A DNA stretch of 64,000 nucleotides from Leptospirales bacterium (GTDB lineage: Bacteria; Spirochaetota; Leptospiria; Leptospirales; Leptonemataceae), in assembly GCA_019694655.1 (NCBI GenBank), contig JAIBBN010000001.1, forward strand, positions 1-64,000, read 5' to 3'. Positions 458 through 9,403 of the stretch are shown piece after piece. Numbering within the stretch: position 1 is the first letter of the stretch; each line of letters opens with the position of its first letter. The notes beneath the pieces were generated by a model that worked only from the letters and a program-made list of their open reading frames with translations, searched no databases and was not told the origin of the DNA. Both the position numbers and the translations under genes were made by a program.

Positions 458-2089
458 ATGTTTCGTAGAAATGCCCTGTTGGCGCTCGTCACTTCCTTGA
501 TCGGGATTGTACTGAGCATGGCTGCGATCCTGCTGAATGCCTGGCATTTCCCGCTTTTGCTTGCGGCGATCGGTCTGCAGAGCCTTACAGCAGCATTCAT
601 TTTCTTGCAAAAGCGGCGCATGGCGCAGGACCTCCGGGCGCTGACGCCCTGGGCGCGACAGGCGGTTTCAGGCAAGGCTCTGTCGGAGCGGACTGGACTG
701 GTTGCCACCGATGAGCTGGGATTCCTCGGCGGTCATCTGGACTTCTTCCTCGATCGACTTTCTTCAAATATCGTGCAGCTGCGCGACGTAGCCCGCGGCC
801 TGGCTCAGCTGCTGGCAGAACTGCGTAACGCCTCCGAACGACTTTCTGGCAGCATCGAAAATGCTGCGGCAATTACCGAGCAACTGACACAGACCTCGGA
901 ACAGGTGCTGGCGGCCGTAGACAGCATCACCGATTCCGTAGGCGCACAACAGAAGAACATTGCACAGATCACAGCGCACACTACAGAGCTGCGCCAGCAG
1001 GTGCGCAGTGCGAACAGCGCCCTGGCCGAAGGCGCGGGGACAGCGCGCAGCCTGGAAACGCAGGCCGCCGGCAGCGAGTCGGATCTGAGTACGCTGACTG
1101 GATCTCTTTCGCACGCCCTGCGCAATGCGCGCGAGGTGGCTTCCATTGCCGCATTCATCTCCGAAGTGACCGAACGGATGACGCTGCTGGCGCTCAATGC
1201 CTCCATTGAGGCGGCGCGCGCCGGCGAGTCCGGGCGAGGCTTTGCCGTGGTCGCCGATGAGATCAGCAAACTGGCCGGGACGACTGCCGGGCGGATGGGC
1301 GAAATCAATCGCCTGGCCGACGACACGCGCAATACAAGCAAAGGCGCGGAACTGGCTGGGCGTAAAATCGAAATCGCGCTGCGTGAGATCGTGACCAGCG
1401 CCGGCGCCATGCGCGTTCAGTTTACCGCAGCGCAAGAAGCGGGACAGATGGTAGATCAATTTGCTGCAAACGCCGACAGTGCGGCGCGTACTGTCTTTGA
1501 GGAAGGCGCCGGAATCGGTCAGGCAGCCGCGGAGCAGAAGGCGGCTATTGAAGAGATCGTCGATGCTGTGCAATCGCTTTCGCTGGATGCCGAGTCGCTG
1601 GCGCGCGCCTCCGATATGCTGGTTCGCGGCATCCACCAGATCGAGATGACTGGCACGCTGGTGTCCGGAATGAGCGCACGTTTCCGGCTCAAAGACGGCG
1701 ATCTGCTGCCCTGGAGCCCGCTCTTTGTGCTGGGGATTGTTGAAATCGATGCGCAGCATCAGCGGTTGGTGCAGATGATCAATGAGTTGTATCGATCGAT
1801 GTCATCTGGCAGCGAGGCCGAAGACATTGCCAGGCTGGTGGACGGTCTGCTGGAATACACAGTGAATCATTTTCACTACGAAGAAGAACTATTTGCCAAA
1901 CGCAAGTATCCCCAGGCGACAGAGCACACAGCAGAACATGAAGCATTTCGTGATCGCGCTCTCGAGTTTCGCGAGGCCCTTGGCCAGGGCGACCCCACTC
2001 TGGGGCCGCGCTTGATGACGCTCTTGACTGAGTGGCTGACTCACCACATCATGGAATCGGATCGCGCATATGTTCCCTATCTGCGCTAA
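458..2089 (+). CDS. Membrane methyl-accepting chemotaxis-type protein with C-terminal hemerythrin domain
   Basis: 543 residues. Two hydrophobic segments at about residues 7-28 and 33-50 are separated by a very short loop, so there is no periplasmic sensor domain. A long coiled-coil cytoplasmic region follows. At about residues 244-272 it contains the MCP signalling hairpin, with [20 protein letters not shown] as a close match to the consensus. The last about 120 residues form a bacteriohemerythrin domain: His in DAQHQRL, His and Glu in HFHYEEE, His residues in TEHTAEHE, then HH and Asp in THHIMESD. These are the usual ligands of an oxygen-binding di-iron site. The likely role is sensing oxygen or redox state in the cytoplasm and passing it to CheA/CheW. 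Its promoter puts +1 almost on the ATG. Confidence 0.85.
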
Positions 2090-4350: not shown

Positions 4351-5919
4351 ATGAGCAACGAAATCCTTGATACGCTGTTGGAGGCGATGCCGGACGCAGT
4401 GTTTGTCAAAGACGGTCAGGGTCGCTGGCTGTTGGCCAATGCGCAGGCCCTGAGAATTTTTGATCTTGAGAATCAAGATTACAGGGGAAAGAGCGACCTG
4501 GAACTGGCGGCGCTGGTTCCTTTTTTCGGTCCGGCGCTGGAGTATTGCGGAACAAGCGACGAAGCCGCCTGGCGCTCGGGAGAGCTGACTCGCGGCGACG
4601 AGACCATCGTCCGGCCGGATGGCAGCTCGCGTTCTTTTGATGTATTAAAGGCGCCGATGTTCAATGCCGATGGCAGCCGGCAGATCCTTGTCATTCTGGG
4701 GCGCGATATAACCGAGCGCATCGCGATGGAGCGGCAGATTGCCGATAGCGAGCTGAAGTACCGCACCATTGCCAATTTCACATACGACTGGGAATACTGG
4801 CTGGGCGCTGACGGTCGTGTTGTCTACAATTCGCCTTCGTGCGAGCGCATTACCGGACACAGTCCCGAAGATTTCATGGAGAACCCCAGACTGGTGGTGG
4901 AAATCGCACACCCAGAGGATCAGCAAAAGGTTCGCGCACACTTGTTGAGCAGTTTTGACAGCGAGCGCGATGATCCCCTTGCTCTGGTTTATCGCATTAT
5001 TCGACCGGATGGCGAGGTGCGCTGGCTGGAGCATGTCTGCCAGCCGGTGTACTCCTCGGACGGGGAGTGGATTGGACGTCGCGGCAGCAATCGCGATATC
5101 ACCGATCGCAAGAGCGTGGAACTCGAACTGGCGCAGACCGTCGAGGCCCTGAAAAAGAGCATCAAAGAGCGAAAGACTCTGGAGCGCTTCTTCTCGCGAG
5201 ATATCCTGGACCAGGTGCTGGAGAAGAAAATCTCCGATCGGCTCGGCGGCAAACGCTGCAATGCTACTACGCTCTTTTTTGATCTGCGCGGCTCCACCGG
5301 CATTGCCGAGCAGCTAGACCCGGATGTCTTTGCCGAATTTCTCAGTATGATCCATACTGATGTTATGGACTTGATCTATGGCAATCATGGTTCGGTGAAC
5401 AAGCTGATCGGCGATGGCATATTGGCCACCTTTGGCGTGCCCACTGCCACCGGCGATGACGCTATGAATGCCGTGCGCTGTGCCGAGCAGGTGCGTTCTT
5501 ACATGCAGGTCTTCAATGAAGTGCGTCCCGACTACCTGCCGACGCCCGTGGAATTTGGCATCGGCATTGCCACCGGCGAAGTTTTTGCCGGAAACACCGG
5601 TTCCGTGCGACGCATGGAATTTACGGTGCTTGGCGATTCTGTGAATCTAGCGGCGCGCCTGGAGTCGATCGCCAAGATGGCGCGCGTAGACATCCTGCTG
5701 GACGGAGAAACACGCCGATTGCTGGGCGATCGCGTTCGTTTGCAGCGAGTTCGATTGGACCGCGTTCGTGGCAAGATGCAAAAGGTCGAAATCTTCTATA
5801 TGAAAGAGATCCGTACATCGCCGGCCGCGTCGGCGCCTGCGACCCCGCCGTCGCCGCTCATGCCGGCTGGCGCGCCGGTGAATCCGCTGCCAGGCGCGGC
5901 AGCGAAGCCGTTACCGTAA
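4351..5919 (+). CDS. PAS-PAS class III adenylate cyclase
   Basis: 522 residues, soluble. PAS1 spans about residues 5-125 and PAS2 about 135-255, each ending in the typical RDITER/RDITDR motif. A short coiled coil leads into the class III cyclase domain (about 300-485). Catalytic residues are visible: metal-binding Asp311 and Asp355, substrate-specifying Lys351 and Asp429, and transition-state Asn432 and Arg436. The Lys/Asp pair indicates ATP rather than GTP as substrate, so the product should be cAMP. The last about 35 residues are Pro/Ala-rich. The 3' end overlaps the convergent kinase gene by 62 nt. The cyclase is probably controlled by a small ligand or cofactor bound to the PAS domains. 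Confidence 0.88.
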   Translation: MSNEILDTLLEAMPDAVFVKDGQGRWLLANAQALRIFDLENQDYRGKSDLELAALVPFFGPALEYCGTSDEAAWRSGELTRGDETIVRPDGSSRSFDVLKAPMFNADGSRQILVILGRDITERIAMERQIADSELKYRTIANFTYDWEYWLGADGRVVYNSPSCERITGHSPEDFMENPRLVVEIAHPEDQQKVRAHLLSSFDSERDDPLALVYRIIRPDGEVRWLEHVCQPVYSSDGEWIGRRGSNRDITDRKSVELELAQTVEALKKSIKERKTLERFFSRDILDQVLEKKISDRLGGKRCNATTLFFDLRGSTGIAEQLDPDVFAEFLSMIHTDVMDLIYGNHGSVNKLIGDGILATFGVPTATGDDAMNAVRCAEQVRSYMQVFNEVRPDYLPTPVEFGIGIATGEVFAGNTGSVRRMEFTVLGDSVNLAARLESIAKMARVDILLDGETRRLLGDRVRLQRVRLDRVRGKMQKVEIFYMKEIRTSPAASAPATPPSPLMPAGAPVNPLPGAAAKPLP

Positions 5920-7816
5920 GCCCCCGCCCGGTCGACGAACGCAGTCGCAGCTTGCCGCCCATGGCGCGCACAATTTCACGGATCATCGGCATGCCCACGC
6001 CGCGCCCTGCATGCAGGTGCGCCTTCTCAGCGCTGGAAACGCCTGAGCGAAAAATCAGGGCAGCCGCCTGACGATCGCTGAGTTCGCTGGCGCGCGCCGT
6101 GCTGAGCAGTCCAGATTCAACAGCGACGCGGCGCAAACGCGCCGGGTCCAGTCCGCGCCCGTCATCGCTAACCGAAATTTCCAGGCGGTCGTCATGAATG
6201 GCAGAACTCAGGCGAATGGAACCCGGCAGTGGTTTGCCAACTTTCAGCCGTTCCTCGGGACTTTCAACGCCGTGAGCAAGCGCATTCTTTAGCAGCTGGA
6301 CGATCAGCCCCTTGGCAGGCATACGTTGCGCACTGGCCAGCAGCGAGGCCTCAAATGCGCTGCAGTCAAAACTGACCTGCTTGCCCAGCTCTTCGCTGAT
6401 TTTCTGTACAAGGCCCTGAAAAGAGCGCTGAAGGGTATCCGTTCCCTCTCGTTGTGGCTGCCTTTCGCCAAAGCGATCGCGAAAGTCCAGCAAGCGTTCG
6501 GTCAGCTGGCTGGTTTCGTCGATCAAACCGACAATCTCGCCAAAGGCCACAAGGAACGGAAAAAAATCGCCGGCATTCAGGTCTGGTTTGCGGATCGCCT
6601 GTGAAACCTTTTCTTCCACCTGATGCAATCGCTGCGCCAGAAATTCCAGTCCCAGAAGGTCGGCGTCGCCTTTTATCTTGTGCACGGAGCGAAAGATCGC
6701 CTGCAGCCTGGCAGGCAGACTTCGATTGTTGTCGGCCTCTTTCAGGATGCCATCGATCAGATCAAGCTCGATGCGCGCCTCATCGATGAACTCTGCAAGC
6801 ATCGCCGAATCGACGTGCAAAATACGGAAGAGCAGCTCCATCTGCGACTGGGCCTTGCGCTCATTGGCCTTGAGCTGTTCGCGCAGCGCCGCTTCGGCAG
6901 TAACATCGATGACCGTAGCCATCAGGTGGGCGATCGATTCGTTTTCCGATACTCGGCGAAAGCTGAAGCGCAGCAATCGCGATTCCGGGGCTTCGCCTGG
7001 CGCGCCATGGCTGAAGGAAATTTCAGACAGCGGATTGAGCTGCTCCAGACTGCCGGCGAAGACCTTCTGGTCAAACATCAGCTTTAGATAACTCTGTGCG
7101 CTTTTCAACGCCGCTTCCGAAATATGCGCGGAAATCAGCTTCAAGAAATCGCGCTCCGACGGATCCTCGCCCAGCAAAGAAGCTGTCGCCTGCGAGTATT
7201 GCCCGCTCACAAAATAATCTCCTTCACGCTGGTAGATCAGGAAGAGGCCCTGATCGATAGCGTTCAGAATTTTGTCCGTTTCCTGCTTGGCGGCGGCCTG
7301 AGCGACCAGCTGTTCGGCCTGCTTCTGTTCAGTGATGTCGCGGACGATCGCCGTAAACATCAGACTGCCCTCAAATTGCAGGCGGGCGATTGCCAGGTGC
7401 GCCGGAAAAACTGCGCTATCGACGCGACGCCCGCGCAGCTCGCGGCTGGATGCGCCGCTCTCCGCCGCCAGACGCAAGGCTTCGCCAAACTCCTTTACAT
7501 CTGCAAAGAATTCGGCAAGTTCCCGCCCCGTGACCCGTCCATTGTCGCTGCCAAAAATCTGGACTGCCGCCGCATTGGCCGACTGGATGCGCCCCGCTTG
7601 ATCCAGACTGATGATGCCATCCGCCGCCGTATCGACAATAGCGCGAATGCGGTGTTCGCTTCGTTCCAGATCGCCGATGACGCTGGCCAGATAGGTCAGG
7701 AGTTCATTGATCAGCTTTTCGCGGTGCTTGTAGAGCGTGATTTCGCCCAGCGCCCGGTAGTACTCTTCATCGCGCGCGTAGCGCGGATCGCTTGCTACAT
7801 GCAGCAAGGAGGCCAT
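5858..7816 (-). CDS. PAS-PAS-Hpt-CheA-type histidine kinase
   Basis: 652 residues, soluble. A helical N-terminus is followed by PAS1 (about 55-165, ending RDITEQK) and a PAS-like second domain (about 180-310). The Hpt domain (about 340-445) has phosphoacceptor His379 in SVHKIKGDA. The ATPase is of CheA type: N-box at Asn511 in NALAHGVESPEER, G1 box DDGRGLD at 551-557, and G2 box GRGVGM near 605. There is no C-terminal CheW-like coupling domain and no P2 domain, so it is not a standard CheA. It follows the ODP gene by 2 nt in a four-gene operon and probably phosphorylates the CheY-like protein encoded first in that operon. Confidence 0.85.
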   Translation of the reverse strand: MASLLHVASDPRYARDEEYYRALGEITLYKHREKLINELLTYLASVIGDLERSEHRIRAIVDTAADGIISLDQAGRIQSANAAAVQIFGSDNGRVTGRELAEFFADVKEFGEALRLAAESGASSRELRGRRVDSAVFPAHLAIARLQFEGSLMFTAIVRDITEQKQAEQLVAQAAAKQETDKILNAIDQGLFLIYQREGDYFVSGQYSQATASLLGEDPSERDFLKLISAHISEAALKSAQSYLKLMFDQKVFAGSLEQLNPLSEISFSHGAPGEAPESRLLRFSFRRVSENESIAHLMATVIDVTAEAALREQLKANERKAQSQMELLFRILHVDSAMLAEFIDEARIELDLIDGILKEADNNRSLPARLQAIFRSVHKIKGDADLLGLEFLAQRLHQVEEKVSQAIRKPDLNAGDFFPFLVAFGEIVGLIDETSQLTERLLDFRDRFGERQPQREGTDTLQRSFQGLVQKISEELGKQVSFDCSAFEASLLASAQRMPAKGLIVQLLKNALAHGVESPEERLKVGKPLPGSIRLSSAIHDDRLEISVSDDGRGLDPARLRRVAVESGLLSTARASELSDRQAAALIFRSGVSSAEKAHLHAGRGVGMPMIREIVRAMGGKLRLRSSTGRGLTVTASLPRLAADSPARQPA

Positions 7817-7818
7817 GA

Positions 7819-8592
7819 TCAGGCGGACCTGGCCTTCTGCATCATTGGATCATCGATTAAATCCAAACCGCAAGGCAGGTTCCACAGTGCCTCGACAATC
7901 GAATTCAACTGGGCGCGCGGAATAACCTGGCCATGCTGCGGAGCGTAGACCTCGGCATCCACGCTCTGGATTTTCTGCAGCGCGTAGCGCAAAGCAACGT
8001 TGGAGGGCATGAAGCCCTGCATGAAAGCGATGGTATTCTTCAAGGCCGCCTCCGTATGGTAGAGCTCCCAGTCCGGGCCGACGCCGCCCAGAATGTCTCC
8101 GGTAAAGAGCGTCCGCGACTTGATGTCATAGGTCATAACGGCGCCCGCAAAATGGGCGAAGGGCGTCACAATGAATTGTAGCTCGCGGCCGCCCGGCGTC
8201 GTGTAGTGGAGGTAGTCCTCTTGAATGCGATAGAACTCGCCCTGTATTCCATAGTGTTTCAGCAAGTAGACCGTCTTGGCATGGGCGATCACCCGATAGT
8301 CATAGGATCCGCGCAGGCTTTCGAAAATGGGAACCGAGGCGCAAAGATCAGGGTCCTGGTGATTCAATATGATCGTGCTGATCCATTGCGGCTTCACAAT
8401 CGAAAACAATTTCCGTCCGACGACGGGAAAATCCGGAACCGAACCGGGATCGATCAGGATGGAATCCTCGCCGTTCTTGATCAGGTAGGGATTGCAATGC
8501 AGCGCCTCATCGGCCATGAAGTAGCCGGCCCAGAATACATCGGGCGCAATCTCGATGGCCTGATTGGTGTCCAGTTCAACGGGCAGCTGCAT
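7819..8592 (-). CDS. Di-iron metallo-beta-lactamase-fold sensor (ODP/flavodiiron type)
   Basis: 257 residues from the ATG at 8592, which shares one base with the cheX-like stop (TGATG) and has AGGA upstream; an in-frame codon at 8634 would lie inside the upstream gene. The MBL fold carries a flavodiiron-type ligand set: His78, Asp80 and Asp82 in NHQDPDL, His147, Asp166 in TGDI and His220 in PQHGQ. The flavodoxin domain of true flavodiiron oxidases is absent. The family includes the Treponema denticola ODP protein, a di-iron oxygen/iron sensor that works with CheA. Its place between CheX-like and CheA-type genes supports a sensor role rather than a hydrolase role. Confidence 0.82.
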   Translation of the reverse strand: MQLPVELDTNQAIEIAPDVFWAGYFMADEALHCNPYLIKNGEDSILIDPGSVPDFPVVGRKLFSIVKPQWISTIILNHQDPDLCASVPIFESLRGSYDYRVIAHAKTVYLLKHYGIQGEFYRIQEDYLHYTTPGGRELQFIVTPFAHFAGAVMTYDIKSRTLFTGDILGGVGPDWELYHTEAALKNTIAFMQGFMPSNVALRYALQKIQSVDAEVYAPQHGQVIPRAQLNSIVEALWNLPCGLDLIDDPMMQKARSA

Positions 8593-9041
8593 CACTGAAT
8601 TCCTATGACCAGATAGGCGGTGTAGCTTCGCCATTTGATGGGCGCTACATACACGGGGACGTCATTGGGCGTGGTGATATTTTTCAGGGCGCCCTCGACG
8701 ACGACCGGAATGGAAATCATGAAGTCCGCTCCAAATTGTTCGCGAGCATTGCCGGCAATGGTGTTGGCAATCTCGCCGGCCAGGTCGATGCGCGCTGCTG
8801 CGTCGTCGCCGCTGCCGCCCAGAATGGAATGCACCAGTTCGCCAAGCATCGCATTGCCGGAGGTGAAATAGATCATGCCTTTGCGATTGCCGGAAATGCC
8901 AATGACGCCCGTGCAATCAAGGGCCACGGTTTCGCCTGGCTTTTTCAAGAAGGGAACCGCCATTTCCACGCGGTCGCCGGCAATCTGCGAAAAGTAGCGC
9001 ACCGCTCCTTCAACAAAGATCTTCAGATCGACGTCTTTCAT
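8592..9041 (-). CDS. CheX-like CheY-P phosphatase
   Basis: 149 residues. The central helix DLAGEIANTIAGNAREQFG carries the ExxN pair (Glu90, Asn93) used by the CheC/CheX/FliY family to dephosphorylate CheY-P. The surrounding strand-helix-strand pattern (MIYFTSGNAMLGELV, FMISIPVVVEG) fits CheX. It overlaps the regulator stop and the ODP start by one base each, so the three genes are translationally coupled. It probably sets the lifetime of the signal on the adjacent CheY-like protein. Confidence 0.82.
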   Translation of the reverse strand: MKDVDLKIFVEGAVRYFSQIAGDRVEMAVPFLKKPGETVALDCTGVIGISGNRKGMIYFTSGNAMLGELVHSILGGSGDDAAARIDLAGEIANTIAGNAREQFGADFMISIPVVVEGALKNITTPNDVPVYVAPIKWRSYTAYLVIGIQ

Positions 9042-9403
9042 CAGGCCTCCTGGATCAAACGGGCGATCTCGCCGCGCAACTGTTCTGCAGTGAAGGGTTT
9101 GCCCAGAAAACCGCTGGCGCCCTTCTGCAATGCTTCCAGCGCAGTGTCCTTATCGCGCAGTGCGGTGACGATCAAGATACGGGCGGCAGGATTGATAGAG
9201 CGCATTGCTTCCAGCGCGGCCAGCCCGTCCATTTCCGGCATTGTGATGTCCATTGTGACCAGATCCGGCGAATGGCTGCGGAACATCTCCACCGCGATTT
9301 TGCCGTCGCCGGCCTCGCCGACAATCTCCAGCTTAAATTCGTCCAGGTACTTCTGCACAGCGCGGCGGATGATACTGGAATCATCGACGATCAAGAGCTT
9401 CAC
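9041..9403 (-). CDS. CheY-like single-domain response regulator
   Basis: 120 residues. Acidic pocket Asp7 and Asp8, phosphoacceptor Asp52 in VTMDITMPEMDG, Thr80 and Lys102 in LGKPF are all present, so phosphorylation should work. There is no output domain, so it signals by protein contact. The start is GTG at 9403, with a GGGGG run about 7 nt upstream; the ATG overlapping it (ATGTGA) is immediately closed by a stop. It is the first gene of the minus-strand operon regulator-cheX-ODP-kinase. It may act on the flagellar switch or in a separate pathway. Confidence 0.85.
   Translation of the reverse strand: MKLLIVDDSSIIRRAVQKYLDEFKLEIVGEAGDGKIAVEMFRSHSPDLVTMDITMPEMDGLAALEAMRSINPAARILIVTALRDKDTALEALQKGASGFLGKPFTAEQLRGEIARLIQEA

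Follow-up and report, generated by a model that had tools for sequence, protein, structure and literature searches.

A CheY-CheX-kinase operon of a Leptospirales bacterium with a predicted di-iron ODP protein as a probable additional input

The window analysed here is a stretch of 64,000 nucleotides from a Leptospirales bacterium (GenBank assembly GCA_019694655.1, contig JAIBBN010000001.1, positions 1 to 64,000). On its minus strand lies a four-gene operon for a CheY-type receiver, a CheX-type phosphatase, a protein of the ODP family and a CheA-type kinase without a CheW domain. We consider it likely that this operon is an array-free chemosensory-type cassette (CheY-CheX-kinase) that has taken up a di-iron ODP as a further input and signals through the steps proposed below. 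We also lean, by a small measure, towards a broader reading: array-free cassettes would be widespread in Spirochaetota, and one ODP lineage would act in trans, by way of a transferable docking helix, on effectors unrelated to each other, namely this kinase in two genomes and class III adenylate cyclases in two more. All of the protein families in the operon are already known. The four genes are as follows.

9041..9403, minus strand: CheY-type stand-alone receiver, 120 aa, GTG start (PF00072, 3e-30)
8592..9041, minus strand: predicted CheX-type CheY-P phosphatase, 149 aa (PF13690, 2e-17), matching solved CheX-fold proteins
7819..8592, minus strand: ODP, a metallo-beta-lactamase-fold predicted di-iron protein, 257 aa, stand-alone (PF19583, 5e-52)
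5858..7816, minus strand: CheA-type kinase without CheW and P3, 652 aa, with an N-terminal helix, PAS, PAS-like domain 2, Hpt and P4

The open reading frame coordinates confirmed the tight linkage described in an earlier note on this DNA: the junctions are a 1-nt overlap, another 1-nt overlap and a 2-nt gap. The Pfam domains found in the four proteins are Response_reg, CheX, ODP, and PAS with Hpt and HATPase_c, and the active-site residues are intact in all four. The CheY protein carries D7, D8, D52, T80 and K102 and has no output domain, as is typical of CheY. In CheX, D86, E90, N93 and P112 are present, and E90 and N93 form the E-x2-N phosphatase motif. These residues are invariant in 41 of 41 cassettes (see below), except that the position of T80 in CheY is occupied by T or S.

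The kinase contains the following parts.

7664..7786, minus strand: putative ODP-docking helix, kinase residues 11-51 (EEYYRALGEITLYKHREKLINELLTYLAS), from profile searches
7310..7657, minus strand: PAS domain 1, kinase residues ~54-169, from Pfam, with low AlphaFold (AF2) confidence
6902..7291, minus strand: PAS-like domain 2, kinase residues ~176-305, kept across the whole kinase class
6473..6808, minus strand: Hpt domain, kinase residues ~337-448, from Pfam and AF2, with the phospho-acceptor His379 at 6680-6682
5897..6445, minus strand: P4 ATPase domain of CheA type, kinase residues ~458-640, ending 12 residues before the C-terminus

Besides the Hpt His379, the kinase has the N, G1, F and G2 boxes, and H379, K382 and G383 are invariant in the kinase alignment (A2). 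Searches of NCBIfam and the PDB tied the last 175 residues to CheA P4 (1.6e-27 for the P4 of T. maritima CheA). The AF2 model showed a helix at 17-47, a poor PAS1, a confident PAS-like domain at 190-304, a four-helix Hpt at 337-448 and P4 from 458. Neither H-kinase_dim nor CheW was matched in the Pfam scan. The gap between Hpt (448) and P4 (458) in the model, 9 residues, is too short for P3. P5 (CheW) is missing as well, since only 12 residues follow P4. All 16 aligned kinase relatives likewise end 2-36 residues after P4. In a census of 13,673 CheAs, P1, P3, P4 and P5 were present in all (PMC10782961). With P1 (Hpt) and a CheA-type P4 but without P3 and P5, the window kinase is therefore outside the census definition of CheA, though CheA-like in its ATPase and Hpt.

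The genome of the window has four CheW-associated CheA kinases, and the operon kinase is a fifth of a different kind. Since it has neither P3 nor CheW, it is not expected to join receptor arrays, and the pathway should operate in parallel to the four CheW-associated CheAs, outside their arrays. This agrees with the independence of receptor arrays that the earlier note had proposed, as does the absence of any receptor or coupling-protein gene within the operon. Compared with canonical CheA systems (CheA-CheW-MCP, with CheX in spirochetes), the operon is alike in its Hpt His, CheA-type P4, CheY and CheX, but it lacks P3, P5/CheW and a receptor or CheW gene, and its kinase has PAS domains. One of the CheW-bearing CheAs of the window genome (L140, 9531-12692, plus strand) has a weak CheX match towards its C-terminus; a CheX match in CheA was also reported for the Leptospirae F1 CheAs (PMC10782961).

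To define the distribution of this kinase, a profile of the PAS2-Hpt region (A3) was run over 198 Spirochaetota genomes and the full-length matches were counted by hand. Full-length relatives occurred in about 40 of the 198. Among 26 genomes of ODP-bearing organisms that were also searched, one betaproteobacterium has kinase-CheY-CheX and one Nitrospirota has a weaker match to the kinase class. Neighbours were then counted at 57 kinase loci, within the same-strand chain and with gaps below 600 bp. CheY and CheX were both in the chain with the kinase at 34 loci, only CheY at 11 and only CheX at 1 (46 of 57 in total); of the remaining 11, several are at contig ends or have a CheY/CheX pair further off. 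The commonest order was CheY>CheX>kinase, as in the window, and an MCP or CheW was nearby at none of the 57 loci.

The three proteins of the cassette also appear to be related as a set. Among the collected loci, the proteins closest to the window CheY and CheX all belong to cassettes and not to the window genome's own CheA clusters, and the 21 best non-self matches of the window CheY are all cassette CheYs. The distance matrices of kinase, CheY and CheX are correlated (Mantel r 0.62, 0.70 and 0.81; p 2e-4), to which shared species history contributes. The 66 CheW-less kinases were separate from the CheW-bearing CheAs; in the approximately unbiased (AU) test a single clade was not rejected, and the constrained tree was the better one. 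The inputs vary within the class and include HAMP, PilJ, a whole ammonium-transporter (Amt) domain and PAS.

We read these comparisons as pointing to a widespread, general array-free cassette with exchangeable sensors, usually without ODP, to which ODP would be an added input. Accordingly, the combination described in the earlier note (an ODP and a CheW-less CheA-type kinase with their own CheY and CheX) was borne out, but the idea of a set dedicated to ODP was not, as most cassettes are ODP-free. The distribution suggests that spirochetes often use chemotaxis-type phosphotransfer ended by CheX with neither receptors nor arrays; signalling censuses that require a CheW domain for CheA would gain a large group from these cassettes. 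No account of a CheW-less CheA with CheX, or of a CheY-CheX-kinase cassette, was found in the open-access literature, which is no proof of novelty. Two variants were also seen: an Amt-type sensor kinase of the class, in which a PAS2-Hpt-P4 kinase carries a fused ammonium-transporter domain and is accompanied by a CheX and a CheY of its own (L179, 5216-7918, minus strand), and two tandem CheX genes in one cassette (L187, 5111-6070, and L188, 4431-5409, both minus strand).

The ODP of the window gave a full-length match to PF19583 (positions 1-194) with 177 bits, against a curated cut-off of 27.2. It carries His78, Asp80, Asp82, His147, Asp166, Gln219 and His220, and the metal-residue positions are nearly invariant across 115 aligned ODPs. 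The earlier note had called the ligand set flavodiiron-type. The six residues that it named are present, and no flavodoxin domain was found by Pfam, as it had said; the type, however, is that of ODP. In the motif HQDPDL, Asp80 stands where flavodiiron proteins have Glu, and this Asp was found in every sampled ODP. Residue 83 is Leu instead of the third His, so the HxExDH motif is absent. Gln219 of PQHG is present; the Gln of this motif is the unusual ligand reported in the T. maritima ODP (PMC7785958). Flavodiiron proteins (FprA, ROO) and the window ODP thus share the metallo-beta-lactamase di-iron fold but differ in ligands and in domain content.

The AF2 model of the ODP has a mean predicted local distance difference test score (pLDDT) of 87.5. 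Its best Foldseek matches were the solved ODPs of T. maritima and T. denticola (6qwo/6qrq/6r9n/6qnm), with E 1e-20, a template-modelling (TM) score of 0.81 and 24-29% identity in the structural alignments. By analogy with these proteins, the window ODP would bind iron and respond to O2 or redox state.

The ODP tree has two main clades with a 100/100 split. The first contains the solved ODPs of T. denticola and T. maritima (6qnm, 6qrq), which pair with a cytoplasmic MCP-like receptor according to the accounts of Muok et al. 2019 PNAS given in PMC7666581 and PMC7785958. An MCP homologue adjoins at least 13 of the 21 members of this clade, even with flanks of just 1.5 kb. The window ODP belongs to the other clade (100/100), its neighbours are CheX and the kinase, and no MCP homologue is adjacent. 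The window ODP is therefore not of the type of the T. denticola protein that the earlier note had cited, and the link to "ODP acting on CheA" is one of analogy. The two are alike in fold, in the HxDxD motif, in the His147/Asp166/Gln219/His220 positions and in the chemotaxis-type phosphotransfer downstream; they differ in clade and in partner, which is a kinase here and an MCP homologue there. The same tree bears on whether the window ODP feeds a standard array in the T. denticola manner, through an MCP and a CheW-bearing CheA, with the operon kinase as a side component. Such a role would draw on the four CheW-associated CheAs of the genome and on an MCP-hemerythrin gene about 4 kb away, but the clade, the adjoining kinase and the lack of CheW and P3 in that kinase make it improbable.

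Members of the window ODP clade are fused or adjacent to enzymes: HisKA kinases with OmpR regulators, hybrid kinases, GGDEF, GGDEF-REC, SpoIIE and class III cyclases, and, in a single case, to an OmpR-type DNA-binding domain. The systems with ODP-HisKA kinases and OmpR regulators (Sulfurimonas and relatives) and the ODP-GGDEF, ODP-SpoIIE and ODP-cyclase fusions resemble the window operon in that the same ODP clade would control an enzyme; they differ in covalent fusion, in output and in having no CheX. In the open-access literature searched we found no description of enzyme-coupled ODPs and no publication on these four kinds of fusion. Several further arrangements were seen in the collected loci. 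A Sulfurovum ODP is fused directly to an OmpR-type DNA-binding domain, forming a one-component ODP regulator (L056, 6977-8059, plus strand). In one relative a single open frame contains an ODP and, after it, class III cyclase sequence (L138, 8433-10211, plus strand), and in another an ODP is adjacent to a REC-like cyclase gene (L136, 7299-9832, minus strand). ODP-SpoIIE-type phosphatase fusions (L073, L074, L088, L091, L094, L023-L029) are common in the same spirochete family, with tetratricopeptide repeats in those scanned.

The fusions are also relevant to a metabolic role for ODP, as a scavenger of O2 or peroxide or in iron handling, in which it would be co-expressed without contacting the kinase, and the kinase's own PAS would sense. 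ODP is related to flavodiiron O2 reductases, the kinase PAS resembles the FixL PAS, and most cassettes of this class have no ODP. We nevertheless regard this role as rather unlikely: the window ODP has no flavodoxin or rubredoxin domain and thus no evident entry for electrons, covalent fusion of clade members to HisKA kinases, GGDEF, SpoIIE, a class III cyclase and a DNA-binding domain fits a sensor, and the helix described below is limited to ODP neighbours.

The four-gene arrangement is beyond chance, as it recurs in other genomes, which answers the conservation check suggested in the earlier note. The same order was found in one other genome of the family (G199, loci L032/L177; ODP 74% and kinase 45% identical), and a rearranged order, kinase-ODP-CheY-CheX, in the distant spirochete G028 (L134). 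A clade made up solely of the three ODPs beside Hpt-P4 kinases was rejected (AU test, p 8e-5). It is likely, though not proven, that ODP joined Hpt-P4 kinases by independent recruitment.

The N-terminus of the kinase carries a helix of about 40 residues that is common to the predicted adenylate cyclases adjacent to ODP in G190 and G040. A first profile, built from the window and G199 kinases only and run over 7405 open reading frames of the collected loci, recovered one further protein, the class III cyclase directly downstream of the G190 ODP (2e-5; the next match was at 0.34). A three-sequence profile (A4) was then searched in eight whole genomes. It found the ODP-adjacent cyclase of G040 blind, at 8e-18, since this sequence was absent from the profile, and nothing else below 0.2 in G000, G199, G190 and G040. 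These four genomes contain 43, 60, 68 and 32 class III cyclases, respectively, and the helix was not in the others of them or in other kinases. The consensus is E-[END]-Y-Y-R-A-[LI]-x2-[IL]-x3-[KR]-[HN]-[RK]-E-x-[LM]-[ILV]-x-E-L-L, and its invariant positions, which include YYRA and ELL, are kept in two unrelated effector types. In the kinases the helix immediately precedes PAS, and in the cyclases it immediately precedes the catalytic region.

The four ODPs concerned form one subclade (100/100), with the window and G199 proteins beside kinases and the G190 and G040 proteins beside cyclases. The helix accompanies the sensor ODP in all four, but the enzyme that follows it differs. Because all four members of the subclade have a neighbour that carries the helix, it is probably an ODP-docking helix; a binding site for ODP on its effector is the simplest reading. 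In a profile comparison with the linkers of 54 ODP fusion proteins it had no counterpart; such unrelated linkers are as expected if fusion replaces docking. No description of the helix was found in the open-access literature searched. If the docking function is correct, one sensor, one helix and two alternative effectors would make a compact unit for studying how the iron-oxygen state of ODP is relayed to an enzyme.

As the main alternative, the helix might be nothing more than a coiled coil through which the effectors dimerise or signal, with ODP acting elsewhere on the kinase, on PAS or Hpt. Signalling coiled coils are common at such positions upstream of PAS or catalytic regions, and the kinase of G028 is adjacent to an ODP without having the helix. 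That no other class III cyclase or kinase in these genomes has it, and that YYRA and ELL are invariant in unrelated effectors, is not easily explained in this way, and we judge a coiled coil of this kind to be unlikely, with perhaps one chance in a few.

Several points weigh against ODP docking on a recruited cassette. Apart from the helix-free G028 kinase, a dimerisation coiled coil could have been carried along with the locus, and the two helix-bearing cyclases are alike outside the helix, so that the helix is common to two lineages rather than four independent ones. The N-terminal part of the AF2 kinase model has low confidence (pLDDT 38-55). Only two genomes are known to have the four-gene order, and a single clade of the ODPs beside Hpt-P4 kinases together with the two cyclase-linked ODPs was not rejected (AU test, p 0.18), so that ODP may have joined such a kinase once or more often. 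Finally, no experiment on any member of the window ODP clade or of the kinase class was found in the literature.

For the array-free cassette with ODP as an added input, we propose the following signalling path, by which the operon might form the self-contained redox pathway of the earlier note. ODP would bind iron and change its state with O2 or redox conditions or with iron supply, as suggested by its family. It may then dock in trans on the N-terminal helix of the kinase, just upstream of the PAS domains; this site is proposed because the helix is the only part that the kinases have in common with the otherwise unrelated cyclases beside the sister ODPs. The docking state together with PAS1 would set the phosphotransfer from P4 to Hpt His379, for which the catalytic residues are intact. 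The phosphate would be passed to CheY Asp52 and removed by CheX; the active sites of both proteins are intact and invariant. As CheY has no output domain, CheY-P would act by binding a target, for example the flagellar motor or another protein.

Two neighbouring genes were also noted. A PAS-PAS-class III cyclase gene (4351-5919, plus strand) is convergent with the kinase gene, and their 3' ends overlap by 62 nt. As outputs of the pathway, this cyclase and the one that follows the G199 kinase were weighed and set aside; with 43-60 class III cyclases per genome, nearness is weak evidence. At 458-2089 (plus strand), about 4 kb from the operon, an MCP signalling domain is fused to a hemerythrin domain (DcrH-like), and the product is a second non-haem-iron O2-type sensor near the operon. 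In hemerythrin-domain sensors such as DcrH and VcBhr-DGC, a non-haem di-iron input is linked to receptor, diguanylate cyclase (DGC) or phosphodiesterase outputs (PMC8846402, PMC13401364). They would resemble the window ODP in this O2/redox input, but their four-helix fold is unrelated.

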